DNA of 64,000 nucleotides, taken from NCBI GenBank assembly GCA_035506535.1, contig DATJPE010000093.1, positions 1 through 64,000 on the forward strand, in the 5' to 3' direction. Made by a program: the position numbers and the translations under genes. Below, piece after piece: positions 41,853-47,553 of the stretch (positions are counted from its first letter, which is position 1; each line of letters opens with the position of its first letter). Below the pieces are notes generated by a model that was not told the origin of the DNA, searched no databases, and saw only the letters and a program-made list of their open reading frames with translations. This stretch comes from Actinomycetes bacterium (GTDB lineage: Bacteria > Actinomycetota > Actinomycetes > DATJPE01).

Positions 41853-42781
41853 CCCTCCGGCGGCTCCGCCGCGGCCGGCTCCGGCGACGTCCACGCAGAC
41901 AGCTGGCCGGCGAAGGCGTCGCCGAGCGCGGCGACCGAGCGGGAGAGCTCCGCGGGGATGACCCACACCTTGCTGGCCTGCCCGTTGGCGATCTGCGGCA
42001 GCGCCTGCAGATAGGTGTAGGCGAGCAGCTTGGGGTCGGGGTCGCCGACGTGGATCGCGTCGAACACCGTCGAGATGGCCTTCGCCTCGCCCTCGGCCCG
42101 CAGGATCGCGGACTGCTTGTCTCCCTCGGCCCGCAGGATCGCGGACTGCCGCTCCCCTTCCGCGGTGAGGATCTGGCTCTGCTTGAACCCCTCGGCGGTG
42201 AGGATGGTGGCGCGCTTCTCCCGCTCGGCGCGCATCTGCTTCTCCATGGCCTCCTGCACCGAGGCCGGCGGGTCGATCGCCTTGATCTCCACCCGGTTGA
42301 CGCGCACGCCCCACTTGCCGGTGGCCTCGTCGAGGACGCCCCGTAGGGCACCGTTGATGGCATCGCGCGAGGTGAGCACCCGCTCGAGGTCGAGCCCGCC
42401 GACGACGTTGCGCAGCGTGGTGACGGTCAGCTGCTCGATCGCCTGGATGTAGTTGGCGATCTCGTAGGTGGCCGCCTTGGGATCGGTGACCTGGAAGTAG
42501 ATGACCGAGTCGATGTTGACGACCAGGTTGTCCTCGGTGATCACCGGCTGGGGCGGGAAGCTGACCACCTGCTCGCGCAGGTCGACCAGCGGGCGCAACT
42601 TGTCGACGAAGGGCACCAGGATCGACAGGCCCGCGTTCAGCGTCCGGTGATAGCGGCCCAGCCGCTCCACGACGCCGGCCCGTGCCTGCGGGACGATCCG
42701 CACCGTACGGGCCAGCACGATCAGCACGAACACGAAAAGGATCGCGCCGATGACCAGCGACACGGTCTCGGTCTGGCTCAC
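41834..42781 (-). CDS. SPFH/stomatin-like membrane protein (QmcA type)
   Basis: A 315-residue protein with one N-terminal membrane helix (about 8-27), an SPFH domain (about 28-185) and a long helical tail. The tail has four 11-residue repeats of an ILxAEGxxQ pattern (residues 191-234), as in QmcA-like proteins. SPFH proteins form ring cages that hold membrane proteins and proteases. The NfeD partner lies directly upstream (four bases). Confidence 0.92.
   Translation of the reverse strand: MSQTETVSLVIGAILFVFVLIVLARTVRIVPQARAGVVERLGRYHRTLNAGLSILVPFVDKLRPLVDLREQVVSFPPQPVITEDNLVVNIDSVIYFQVTDPKAATYEIANYIQAIEQLTVTTLRNVVGGLDLERVLTSRDAINGALRGVLDEATGKWGVRVNRVEIKAIDPPASVQEAMEKQMRAEREKRATILTAEGFKQSQILTAEGERQSAILRAEGDKQSAILRAEGEAKAISTVFDAIHVGDPDPKLLAYTYLQALPQIANGQASKVWVIPAELSRSVAALGDAFAGQLSAWTSPEPAAAEPPEGQPTGA
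42080..42211 (-). repeat. Four 33-bp repeats within the SPFH gene
   Basis: Four in-frame units of 33 bases encode the hendecad ILxAEGxxQ series. The last two are nearly the same at DNA level (a shared run of about 26 bases), so the tract may vary in copy number between strains. The protein repeat itself is a family trait. Confidence 0.7.
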
Positions 42782-43309: not shown

Positions 43310-44095
43310 TCAGGCCGCCCGGGCCGACCAGCGTCCCGCGCGGTGCTCGACGCGCAGCGCCATCCCGAAGGTCGCGGACAGCGGGTCCGCGGCCAGCACC
43401 TCCTCCAAGGGGCCGGCGGCGACCACCCGCCCGCCGCGCAGCAGCAGCCCGTGCGTGAAGCCGCGCGGGACCTCCTCCACATGGTGGGTCACCAGCACGA
43501 GCGCCGGGGCGAGCGGGTCGACCGCGAGCTCGCCGAGACGGCGTACCAGGTCCTCCCGGCCCCCCAGGTCGAGGCCCGCGGCCGGCTCGTCGAGGAGGAG
43601 CAGCTCCGGGTCGGCCATGAGCGAGCGCGCGATCTGCACCCGTTTGCGCTCCCCCTCGGACAGCGTCGCGAACCGGCGGCCGGCCAGGTCCACCACGCCG
43701 AGCTGGGCGAGGAGGGTGTCCGCGCGACCCACGTCGAAGCCCTCGTACTGCTCGCGCCAGCGGCCGGTGATCGCCCACGCCCCAGTGAGCACGACGTCGC
43801 GGACCTTCTCCTCCGGCGGCAGCCGGTCGGCCAGGGCGGCCGAGGCCAGCCCCACCCGGGGACGTACCTCGAAGACGTCGACCTGGCCGAGCCGCTCACC
43901 GAGCACGTGCACGACACCCCGTGTTGGATACAGGTACGTCGAGGCGACCTGCAGCAGCGTGGTCTTGCCGGCACCGTTCGGGCCGAGCACGACCCAGCGG
44001 TCGCCGTCCTCGACCGCCCAGTCGACGTCGGCGAGGATCGGCTTGCCGCCACGCGTGACGGTGACCCCTCGCAGGTCGAGCACCGACGCCGTCAC
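43310..44095 (-). CDS. ABC transporter ATP-binding protein
   Basis: A stand-alone 261-residue ABC ATPase: Walker A GPNGAGKTT, signature LSEGERKRVQIARSL, Walker B LLLLDEPAAGLD and the switch His in VTHHVEE. No permease gene is adjacent. The sequence is close to ModF/molybdenum-type or YlmA-like single-domain ATPases that may not act in transport. It is divergent from the next gene by 40 bases. Confidence 0.88.
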   Translation of the reverse strand: MTASVLDLRGVTVTRGGKPILADVDWAVEDGDRWVVLGPNGAGKTTLLQVASTYLYPTRGVVHVLGERLGQVDVFEVRPRVGLASAALADRLPPEEKVRDVVLTGAWAITGRWREQYEGFDVGRADTLLAQLGVVDLAGRRFATLSEGERKRVQIARSLMADPELLLLDEPAAGLDLGGREDLVRRLGELAVDPLAPALVLVTHHVEEVPRGFTHGLLLRGGRVVAAGPLEEVLAADPLSATFGMALRVEHRAGRWSARAA

Positions 44096-44123
44096 GTGCC
44101 GAAACCTACGGCAGCGCGCTGCC

Positions 44124-44129
44124 TAGGCT
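44124..44129 (+). promoter_or_regulatory. Putative -10 element for a leaderless transcript
   Basis: TAGGCT lies six bases before GTG 44136. With the usual -10 to +1 distance the transcript would begin at or next to this GTG, giving a leaderless message. No good -35 hexamer is seen. Confidence 0.35.
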
Positions 44130-44135
44130 GTGCAG

Positions 44136-44894
44136 GTGGTCGACCTCCCGCCGCGCCGGGCAGCCCTGTTCGTGGCCTGGGGCAACGCCTTCCTGGCTGG
44201 CGACGTCGACCCCGACACCGCCAGCGCGGCCATCCGTGGCCGTGACGAGTCGCACGAGGTCATGGGTCTGTCCCAGGACCGGGTCACGCTGCCCGTGGCC
44301 CTGCAGGTGCTCGCGCGTGAGGGAGCGCGGGGTTTCCGGCTGGTCCTCCCCGTGGCGGGGGACGTGTCGGGGCTGCCCGGACCGCCCGCGTTCAACGCCG
44401 CCGCCCTCGAGGCGGGTGAGGCGGTCCTGGTGACCTCGGCCCGCCCGCTGGGCGCGGTGCCCACGCTCACAGGCACCCCCGATGCGGTCCGCGTGAGCTG
44501 GACAGCCTCGCCCGTGGCGCATCGTTCGGACGGCCCGCCGTCCCTGACCGAGGCCGAGCGCGAGCTGGCGGGGGCGATGCGCGAGGCGACCGACCTGCTG
44601 ACCTCGCTCGACATCGCACGTCTCGGCCCCGAGTCCGCGGACCTCCTCGCCGCTCTGCGCGGAGGGGCCTTCGACGGGCCCCGGCTGCCGCCCGGCCTCC
44701 CCCCACGAGCCGACGAGGTCGCCGTCCGCGGCCGTCGCCTCGCCGCGATCGTGACTCTCGCGCGAGCCGACGACGGCGGCGCGCTCAGCGCAGGTGAGGC
44801 GACCCGGCGTCGCGAGGCGCTGGCGCCCCTCGACCGGGCCGCCCGGCGCGCCATCTGCGCCGCCTTCAGCGCGGGCGCGCATCAGGAGCACTAG
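44136..44894 (+). CDS. Conserved-looking hypothetical protein
   Basis: A 252-residue soluble protein I do not recognise. It opens LPPRRAALFVAWGNAFLAGDVDPDTAS, has a strand-rich middle (about 60-130) and a helical C-terminal half with a long Glu/Arg/Ala helix. There is no signal, membrane segment or metal motif. Codon pattern is normal for the window and supports a real gene. The last eight residues (SAGAHQEH, stop TAG) come from the first unit of a 25-bp tandem repeat, so its C-terminus has been reshaped or preserved by that duplication. An in-frame GTG at 44130 is an alternative start. Confidence 0.7.
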   Translation: MVDLPPRRAALFVAWGNAFLAGDVDPDTASAAIRGRDESHEVMGLSQDRVTLPVALQVLAREGARGFRLVLPVAGDVSGLPGPPAFNAAALEAGEAVLVTSARPLGAVPTLTGTPDAVRVSWTASPVAHRSDGPPSLTEAERELAGAMREATDLLTSLDIARLGPESADLLAALRGGAFDGPRLPPGLPPRADEVAVRGRRLAAIVTLARADDGGALSAGEATRRREALAPLDRAARRAICAAFSAGAHQEH

Positions 44895-44942
44895 CGCGGG
44901 CGCGCATCAGGAGCACTGGCGCGGGCGCGCATCAGGAGCACT
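44868..44942. repeat. Three tandem copies of a 25-bp unit
   Basis: Units at 44868-44892, 44893-44917 and 44918-44942. The first two are the same and the third differs only in its first base. Each holds GCGCGGGCGCGCATCAGGAG. The first unit codes the end of the upstream gene and its stop codon spans the junction with the second (TAG), so copies two and three are untranslated. The array ends 31 bases before the serB ATG. Confidence 0.95.
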
Positions 44943-44973
44943 GAACAGGCCCACGGGTATCGTTCGCCGCGCC

Positions 44974-46197
44974 ATGGCAGACCTCGGGACCGCCCTCGTC
45001 ACGCTGTCCGGACCCGACCGTCCGGGGGTGACCACGCAGCTGTTCGCCGCGCTGGGAGCCGCCGTACCGGCCGACGTGCTCGATGTCGAGCAGGTGGTCA
45101 TCCGTGGCCAGCTCGTTCTCGGCGTCCTGCTGGGACCGGTGTCCGGCGCGGATGACCTGCTGGCCGTACGTCGCGCGGCGCACGAGGTCGCTGACCGGGT
45201 CGGCATGAGCGTCACGGTCGCCGCGGGCGCCGAGGAGGCCGACCCCCGGCGGGTCGGCCGCGTCCACGTCACCGTCCTCGGCAGACCGCTGCGCCCCGGG
45301 GTCGTCGCGGCCCTGGCCGGGCGCATCGCAGACCTCGGCGCCAACATCGACCGGATCCAGCGACTGTCGCGCTATCCCGTGACGAGCATCGAGTTCGAGG
45401 TGTCGGGGGCCGACCCGGAGGACCTGCGCTCCGCCCTCGCCGCCGAAGCGGCCACCCAGGCCGTGGACGTCGCCGTCGAGCCGTCCGGCCTGTACCGCCG
45501 CGCGAAGCGGCTCGTCGTGATGGACGTGGACTCCACCCTCATCCAGGGTGAGGTCATCGAGATGCTCGCCGCCCGGGCGGGCTGCCTGGAGCAGGTCGCC
45601 GCGGTCACCGAGGCGGCCATGCGCGGCGAGCTCGACTTCGCCGCGTCGCTTCGCGCGCGCGTGGCGCTGCTGCGTGGGGTGCCCGAGTCGGCGCTCGACG
45701 ACGTACGGCGGGAGGTGCTGCTCTCGCCCGGTGCGCGGACGCTGGTCCGAACGCTCAAACGCCTCGGCTACGAGGTGGCGGTCGTGAGCGGCGGGTTCAC
45801 CCAGGTGATCGAGCATCTGGTCCGCGAGCTGGGCATCGACCACAGTGCGGCGAACACCCTGGAGGTGGTGGACGGGGTGCTCACCGGCGGGTTGGTCGGG
45901 GCCATCGTCGACCGCCGCGGCAAGGCCAACGCCCTGGAGCGCTTCGCCGCGGCCGCGGGCGTGCCCCTGTCCCAGACAGTCGCGATCGGCGACGGCGCGA
46001 ACGACCTCGACATGCTGGCGCGCTCCGGGATGGGGATCGCCTTCAACGCCAAGCCGGTCGTCCGCGACGCCGCCGACGCCAGCGTCACGGTGCCCTACCT
46101 CGACGCGGTCCTCTACCTGCTCGGCATCAGCCGCGAGGAGGTCGAGGAGGCCGACGCGGCCGAGGGGACCCCGACGCCCGCGCCGCCGCTGGACTGA
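44974..46197 (+). CDS. serB: Phosphoserine phosphatase
   Basis: A 407-residue enzyme for the last step of serine synthesis. Two N-terminal ACT-type domains (about 1-80 and 90-170; GPDRPGVTTQLF and GRPLRPGVVAALAGRIADL) precede the HAD phosphatase. The nucleophile is Asp 184 in MDVDSTLIQGE with Asp 186 as acid/base; AVVSGGFTQVIEHL, the Lys in RRGKANAL and the GDGANDLDML motif complete it. ATG 44974 opens exactly at the first ACT strand. The ACT domains suggest serine feedback. Confidence 0.95.
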   Translation: MADLGTALVTLSGPDRPGVTTQLFAALGAAVPADVLDVEQVVIRGQLVLGVLLGPVSGADDLLAVRRAAHEVADRVGMSVTVAAGAEEADPRRVGRVHVTVLGRPLRPGVVAALAGRIADLGANIDRIQRLSRYPVTSIEFEVSGADPEDLRSALAAEAATQAVDVAVEPSGLYRRAKRLVVMDVDSTLIQGEVIEMLAARAGCLEQVAAVTEAAMRGELDFAASLRARVALLRGVPESALDDVRREVLLSPGARTLVRTLKRLGYEVAVVSGGFTQVIEHLVRELGIDHSAANTLEVVDGVLTGGLVGAIVDRRGKANALERFAAAAGVPLSQTVAIGDGANDLDMLARSGMGIAFNAKPVVRDAADASVTVPYLDAVLYLLGISREEVEEADAAEGTPTPAPPLD

Positions 46198-46213
46198 CGC
46201 GGCTCAGCCGCGT
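46197..46213. terminator. Short GC hairpin between convergent serB and phosphatase genes
   Basis: An almost perfect inverted repeat (ACGCGG...CCGCGT, loop CTCAG) sits in the six-base gap of the tail-to-tail pair and could act on both strands. There is no T run, so its strength as an intrinsic terminator is doubtful. Confidence 0.35.
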
Positions 46214-46746
46214 GGGACCGCGAACTCGAGCAGCGCGGCGCGCCCGGTGGACACATCCGCCCAGGCGCAGCCGATCTCCAGCACGGCGATGCCCGACGTG
46301 GGGAAGGAGGCGCCCGCGAGGGCTCGCGCGGTCTCCTGCTCGTGATCGGCGAGGTCGACGACCAGGTCGTGCATGCCGGGGTTGTGGCCGATGAGCAGGG
46401 CCGTGCGACAGCCCTCGTCGATGCTGCGCACGACGCCGCGAAGGGTGGGCAGGCTCGCGTCGTAGATCGCCTCGTCGAAGCTGGCCTCGGGGACCGAGCC
46501 TGTGCCGGCCAGCCCCTTGGCCACCCGCGACCACGTCTCCCTGGTCCGCGCCGCCGGGGAGCAGAGGACGACGTCGGGGAGAAGGCCCTGCGCGGCGAGC
46601 CACTCTCCCGCCGCGAGGGCGTCGCGTCGGCCGCGGCCGGACAGCGGGCGCTCGTCGTCGGGCACACCGGGCGGCCAGCCTGACTTCGCGTGCCTCAGCA
46701 CGACGAGTCGGTGGCGGCCGCCGGAACTATGAAGCGGATCACTCAC
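46204..46746 (-). CDS. SixA-like histidine phosphatase
   Basis: A 180-residue phosphatase of the histidine (phosphoglycerate mutase-like) superfamily. The RHG-type motif is LVVLRHAKSGWP with the catalytic His; the second His is in LLIGHNPGMHDLV. The PDDERPLSGRGRRDA segment is typical of the SixA branch. It may remove phosphate from His of signalling proteins or act on small molecules; the substrate is open. Confidence 0.88.
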   Translation of the reverse strand: MSDPLHSSGGRHRLVVLRHAKSGWPPGVPDDERPLSGRGRRDALAAGEWLAAQGLLPDVVLCSPAARTRETWSRVAKGLAGTGSVPEASFDEAIYDASLPTLRGVVRSIDEGCRTALLIGHNPGMHDLVVDLADHEQETARALAGASFPTSGIAVLEIGCAWADVSTGRAALLEFAVPRG

Positions 46747-46785
46747 GAGACCATCATGCCCAACCAGGAGCGTGCGCGGGCGTCG

Positions 46786-47553
46786 TCAGGCGCCGATGGC
46801 ATGCACGCCGCCGTCGACGTGGACGATCTCGCCGGTGGTGCGCGGGAACCAGTCGGAGAGCAGGGCCACGCAGGCCCGCGCGGCCGGCTCCGGGTCGGCG
46901 AGGTCCCAGCCGAGGGGGGCCCGCTCAGACCACACCTGCTCGAAGGACTCGAAGCCGGGGATCGACTTCGCCGCCATGGTGCGGATCGGCCCGGCCGCGA
47001 CGAGGTTCACCCGGACCCCGGCTGGTCCGAGATCACGGGCGAGGTAGCGGGCGGTGGACTCGAGAGCAGCCTTCGCGACGCCCATCCAGTCATATGTCGG
47101 CCACGCGACCGTGGCGTCGAAGTCCAGCCCCACGACCGACAGGCCGCCGGATCCGGCGAGGGGCAGCACCGCGGTGGTGAGGGACTTCAGCGAGTACGCC
47201 GACACGTGGACCGCCGTGGCCACGTCGTCCCACGGGGTGTGCAGGAAGTTGCCGCCGAGCGCGGAGGTGGGCGCGAAGGCGATGGCGTGCAGGACCCCGT
47301 CGAGGGAGTCGACGTGCTCCCGGACCCGGTCGGAGAGCGAGGAGAGGTGCTCGTCGTCGGTGACGTCGAGCTCGACGACCGGTGGCGGGCTGGGCAGCCG
47401 TTGGGCGATCCGCTGTACCAGCGAGAGCCGACCGTAGCCGGTGAGCACGACGGTGGCCCCCTCCTCCTGGGCCAGCCGGGCCACGGAGAAGGCGATCGAG
47501 GCGTCGGTGAGCACGCCGGTGACGAGCAGCCGCTTTCCGTCGAGCAGTCCCAT
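46786..47553 (-). CDS. fabI: Enoyl-ACP reductase, InhA-like FabI
   Basis: NADH-dependent last step of fatty-acid elongation, 255 residues. It starts GLLDGKRLLVTGVLTDASIAFSVA and has the catalytic pair Tyr 154 and Lys 161 in PTYDWMGVAKAALES, matching InhA Tyr158/Lys165. At the NADH-site position of InhA Ser94 this protein has Ala 90 (LHAIAF). It is 48 bases after fabG, the same order as mabA-inhA in mycobacteria. The symbol inhA would be equally fair. Confidence 0.93.
   Translation of the reverse strand: MGLLDGKRLLVTGVLTDASIAFSVARLAQEEGATVVLTGYGRLSLVQRIAQRLPSPPPVVELDVTDDEHLSSLSDRVREHVDSLDGVLHAIAFAPTSALGGNFLHTPWDDVATAVHVSAYSLKSLTTAVLPLAGSGGLSVVGLDFDATVAWPTYDWMGVAKAALESTARYLARDLGPAGVRVNLVAAGPIRTMAAKSIPGFESFEQVWSERAPLGWDLADPEPAARACVALLSDWFPRTTGEIVHVDGGVHAIGA

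Follow-up and report, generated by a model that had tools for sequence, protein, structure and literature searches.

We report a 25-bp tandem triplication at the end of an uncharacterised conserved gene (P1) upstream of serB, in a 64,000-nucleotide stretch of actinobacterial DNA (the window), and consider it very probable that the array is a single-locus, gene-end minisatellite that arose by two tandem duplications and is probably neutral. The array is of an ordinary gene-end repeat type, and the same kind has been described for variable-number tandem repeats (VNTRs) of Yersinia pestis in the consulted parts of a published report (PMC3689786). Its one oddity is an unusual coding property, evident in silico: the loss of one copy could join P1 to serB in frame.

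Three units lie head to tail at positions 44868-44942, with 100, 100 and 96% identity to unit 1 (Table 1). A preliminary description had proposed that the array is a triplication, that the unit holds the last codons of the upstream gene, that the stop codon is formed where the first two units meet, and that the third unit begins with G in place of A. The sequence bears out each of these points, and TRF and simulations further support the triplication. In the TRF output the array is shifted downstream by one base (44869-44943, 98% match), and with a score of 143 it outranks all others among the 22 rows reported for the window. Best scores in 90 simulated windows, 30 for each of Markov orders 1, 2 and 5, were 78, 88 and 92, respectively; the tandem array is far above the simulated maximum, and thus far above chance. 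It is a minisatellite, with tandem units in at least two copies, and the stop codon of the P1 reading frame falls within it. The unit was found nowhere else in the 3,351,410-base, 102-contig assembly with up to three mismatches allowed, which rules out a dispersed repeat or mobile unit; the scattered genomic copies typical of MIRUs are lacking, the three copies of the array being the sole occurrences.

The true copy number could differ from the assembled one, as the source is a draft (102 contigs, 96.54% complete) in which some other arrays sit at the very start of a contig (L137, L156, L179, L181 and L193). Against such an assembly artefact, which we regard as very improbable, the 75 bp of the array are shorter than common short reads, and unit 3 is marked by a base of its own.

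Table 1. Features of the P1-serB junction, in window positions
Feature	Position	Strand	Remarks
P1, uncharacterised conserved gene	44136-44894	+	252 codons plus TAG; GTG start at 44136 or 44130
Repeat unit 1	44868-44892	+	P1 codons 245-252 and first base (T) of the stop
Stop codon TAG	44892-44894	+	Straddles the boundary between units 1 and 2
Repeat unit 2	44893-44917	+	Identical to unit 1
Repeat unit 3	44918-44942	+	First base G, not A; gives TGG if placed after unit 1
TGA	44942-44944	+	Stop in the one-unit state; now out of frame; probably ancestral
TATCGT (TANNNT box)	44958-44963	+	10 nt before the serB ATG; downstream of the array
serB, phosphoserine phosphatase	44974-46197	+	Two ACT domains and a HAD domain; TIGR00338 at 239.1 bits (cut-off 144.15)

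The coding consequences of a change in copy number depend on which unit is lost. Removing the middle unit in silico creates CAC TGG and leaves the frame open through all of SerB, for 678 codons to the serB stop; the earlier proposal that this loss would extend P1 towards serB thus holds in a stronger form, as the extended reading frame takes in the complete SerB. Two identical units (1 and 2) keep the TAG, a single unit ends in TGA after the same last residue, and a three-unit array carrying G at each junction would be read for 339 codons in a frame other than that of serB. Among the 51 possible 25-bp deletions within the array, 26 leave the protein unchanged, in agreement with the earlier view that the repeat count does not alter it, and the other 25 depart from that view by producing a P1-SerB fusion. 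Copy-number change therefore alters frame and product at this locus, as in a phase-variable locus, in silico only, and the fusion is a coding possibility only. The preliminary description went further and suggested a possible slippage switch. Spelled out, this would mean that some cells lose one of the three units and thereby make a P1-SerB fusion with a distinct role. Such a switch would fit both the yield of open in-frame fusions from about half of the single-unit deletions and the proneness of adjacent perfect repeats of 24-25 bp to slip, and is weakened by the fact that a single allele is known, from one assembly.

Relatives provide further evidence against such a switch. In a non-random sample of 44 P1-serB junctions, chosen by eye among the matches listed and mainly from near neighbours, none was fused, which rules out a natural P1-SerB fusion for this sample, and none carried the 25-bp array. 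The sample began with 45 loci, of which L112 was dropped for lack of a P1 hit and L093 gave no serB start, so that 44 were usable for stops and fusions and 43 for gaps and promoter boxes; two loci (L011 and L014) have almost the same sequence. In the 44 junctions, TRF reported four repeats no more than 60 nt away from the P1 stop, with scores from 40 to 59. The lowest, in L096, touches the P1 stop (12-bp unit, 2.2 copies, a score of 40 being the reporting threshold), and the highest, in L087, ends 8 nt before the last base of the stop (21-bp unit, 1.9 copies).

The gap between the P1 stop and the serB start has a median of 32 nt across 43 junctions and is at least 69 nt in 11 of them (at least 174 nt in L096, L098, L100, L103 and L106), and the 79-nt gap of the window is therefore not unusual by itself. 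Reduced to one unit, the window would read TGA, 29 nt and ATG, with TATCGT 10 nt before the ATG. The genome with the most similar serB among the matches listed (G020, locus L074; 72%) reads TGA, 28 nt and ATG, with TACCGT at the same distance. This resemblance, together with the absence of the array from all 44 junctions, suggests that a single unit is the likely ancestor. Junctions of near relatives nevertheless differ among themselves: the best P1 match among the matches listed (G059, L015) has TAA followed by 12 nt, and G041 has TAG followed by 13 nt.

A TANNNT sequence shortly before a start codon is the form taken by leaderless actinobacterial promoters. When 5-12 nt before the serB start are considered, such a box is present in 39 of the 43 junctions (shuffled sequences: mean 0.98, maximum 5), at distances of 6-11 nt, and serB of the window probably has its own putative leaderless promoter, on the downstream side of the array. 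A scan of 44000-46800 for the E. coli-type sigma-70 consensus called no promoter and left the TATCGT box unflagged, and the proposed serB promoter is to that extent unconfirmed. As serB seems to own a downstream promoter, a fusion would probably add a product; it would neither replace SerB nor switch serB on or off. In 18 of the 43 junctions, drawn from loci L074-L113, L015, L007, L011, L013 and L014, the TAG or TAA stop of the upstream gene forms the first three bases of the TANNNT box; there, a stop codon and the probable leaderless promoter of serB share bases.

The position of the array directly upstream of serB also raises the possibility that its length tunes serB expression. There is a precedent in Mycobacterium tuberculosis, where longer repeats before Mtb-fpg1 go with more fpg1 mRNA, according to excerpts of that report (PMC2734929). 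At our locus, the bases just before the putative -10 box do not depend on copy number, provided that the last unit is retained. Additionally, the RNA fold of 44860-44985 was no better than that of shuffled sequences (z 0.22) and no Rfam family matched the window at gathering score, which rules out an RNA element; a terminator is ruled out as well, since no terminator-like site was found in 44000-46800. Thus, we consider tuning of serB by array length to be very unlikely.

Arrays that touch stop codons are a common class in this genome, which further weakens the proposal of a switch. Among 244 arrays (TRF score of at least 50) in a 1.32-Mb sample of the genome, 26 touch a predicted stop and 6 a predicted start, where random placement would give 11.6 and 12.0, respectively; none of 200 placements reached 26 stops. 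When the comparison is confined to the 85 arrays that are not wholly inside genes, the stop count is close to the random value (26 against 24.6, reached by 23 of 60 placements) and starts are depleted (6 against 25.7, 0 of 60 placements). The plain reading is that duplications are lost when they fall within genes or at starts and persist when they fall at gene ends; common stop-touching arrays are what would be expected if gene ends tolerate duplication. The counts are approximate because genes were called by a codon-usage script instead of taken from an annotation (1178 genes, or 1181 with the looser training cut used for the genome comparison). The sample itself (1,321,998 bases in 81 pieces, the window included, with 13,032 N) is not random, most pieces being the initial 20 kb of a contig (C1-C17 and C18-C77), to which the remainder of C93 was added. 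Samples of 0.40 Mb from each of two further genomes show the same tendency, with small numbers: 5 stops and 1 start among 99 arrays in G012, and 4 stops and no starts among 95 arrays in G058. Stop-touching arrays are denser in our genome, at 19.7 per Mb against 12.5 and 10.0, respectively.

Single-unit deletions were tried in 28 array-gene pairs: in 20 the protein survives all of them unchanged, and in 8 some deletion alters it. This test weighs every deletion start within an array alike, imperfect arrays included, and can detect a fusion where the next gene is called on the same stretch; on these terms, the window array is alone among these pairs, and among the 26 stop-touching arrays sampled, in yielding a fusion upon loss of a unit. 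That singularity is a point against a neutral account, and P1's TAG at the unit junction might be kept by selection. However, protein-changing deletions in 8 of the 28 pairs indicate that chance would sometimes produce such an arrangement. Weighed together with the single allele, the unfused junctions of relatives and the probable promoter of serB itself, this leads us to judge a slippage switch that makes a fusion with a distinct role very improbable. More specifically, a reversible three-to-two contraction in part of the population, which would alternate between P1 and SerB as distinct products and their fusion through a stop built by the repeat junction, appears extremely improbable.

P1 is widespread, and its end seems able to accommodate the array. 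It was matched in 188 of 296 genomes of the class, our genome counted, and is a near upstream neighbour of serB in about 40 of the P1-matched genomes among the matches listed. No Pfam or NCBIfam family matched P1 at E 0.001, a sequence search of the PDB returned nothing credible (best E 0.083), and a fold search of the PDB gave no match at E of 0.001 or below (best 0.049, TM 0.12). Its AlphaFold2 model has a mean pLDDT of 85.3 and a pTM of 0.84. Residues 241-250 are modelled inside the last helix with a mean pLDDT of 82, and thus the tail, as modelled, does not appear plainly disordered, with residues 251-252 at a mean of 42; this counts against the minisatellite reading as a whole. The last invariant column in an alignment of ten P1 proteins (A1) is A243; the array begins at codon 245. 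The core of P1's most conserved stretch in the ten-protein alignment is PAFNAAALEAG, with few exceptions.

We return to the minisatellite of two tandem duplications, for which a simple history can be proposed. In the one-unit ancestor that we infer, P1 would have ended in SAGAHQEH followed by TGA, about 29 nt before serB. Tandem duplication of 25 bp, comprising the last eight codons and one base, would then have been the first step, and its phase would have created the new TAG stop at the junction at once. The third unit could stem, with no point mutation needed, from another duplication whose breakpoints were shifted by one base; alternatively, a same-phase copy may have been followed by one A/G change. 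The order of these events is likewise our inference. Because the array starts past the last invariant residue of P1 and ends upstream of the probable serB promoter, it would have been tolerated and is most likely neutral. The locus illustrates that tandem duplication can replace the stop of a gene by one built at a repeat junction, and the resulting state, in which a single contraction would suffice to fuse two genes, suggests a plausible path to fused genes. It is otherwise ordinary, as gene ends tolerate such duplications.

The closest published parallels, as far as the consulted parts of these sources go, are stop-overlapping VNTRs in Y. pestis, where 10 of 88 VNTRs overlap a stop codon and 6 of 88 a start codon (PMC3689786). 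Those loci resemble ours in that tandem units contain the end of an ORF. According to the same excerpts, copy number at stops need not alter coding, although non-identical motifs may do so, and the stop-overlapping loci show low diversity, for which the authors suggest constraint; this speaks against calling such loci neutral. The Y. pestis loci vary between strains, whereas our array is known from one genome, and their motifs contain the stop, whereas our stop arises where two units adjoin. Mycobacterial MIRUs likewise place repeats at the boundary of neighbouring genes and are described, in the sections consulted, as elements of 40-100 bp that are dispersed along the chromosome, seem to be mobile and sit at start codons as insertions (PMC12548453, PMC2734929); in contrast, our unit is 25 bp long, occupies one locus and lies at a gene end. 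The repeats linked to Mtb-fpg1 expression (ETR-F/VNTR3239) share with our array the character of a lineage-specific array in an intergenic gap; the gap upstream of fpg1 measures 1 to 54 bp in those mycobacteria, not of the tuberculosis complex, that the available excerpts list (PMC2734929). They start 40 bp after the rnc stop, however, and, unlike our array, copy no gene end. A search of the literature on stop-codon repeats, duplications and fusions, mostly without full texts, found no bacterial fusion switch of such a build.

Two further observations concern repeats elsewhere in the genome and the class. Many short arrays start slightly ahead of a stop codon and extend past it in the downstream direction, and in most of them the stop lies within the first unit; examples are L181 10973-11110, L177 12562-12630, L115 9843-9919, L190 2124-2202 and L193 7483-7539. 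In the window itself, TRF reports a degenerate 33-bp tandem repeat of 2.3 copies at 42155-42230, inside a gene that we take to be SPFH/stomatin-like. Loci L007 and L011 have 33-bp repeats of similar sequence, and thus this repeat looks like a coding repeat of its gene family.
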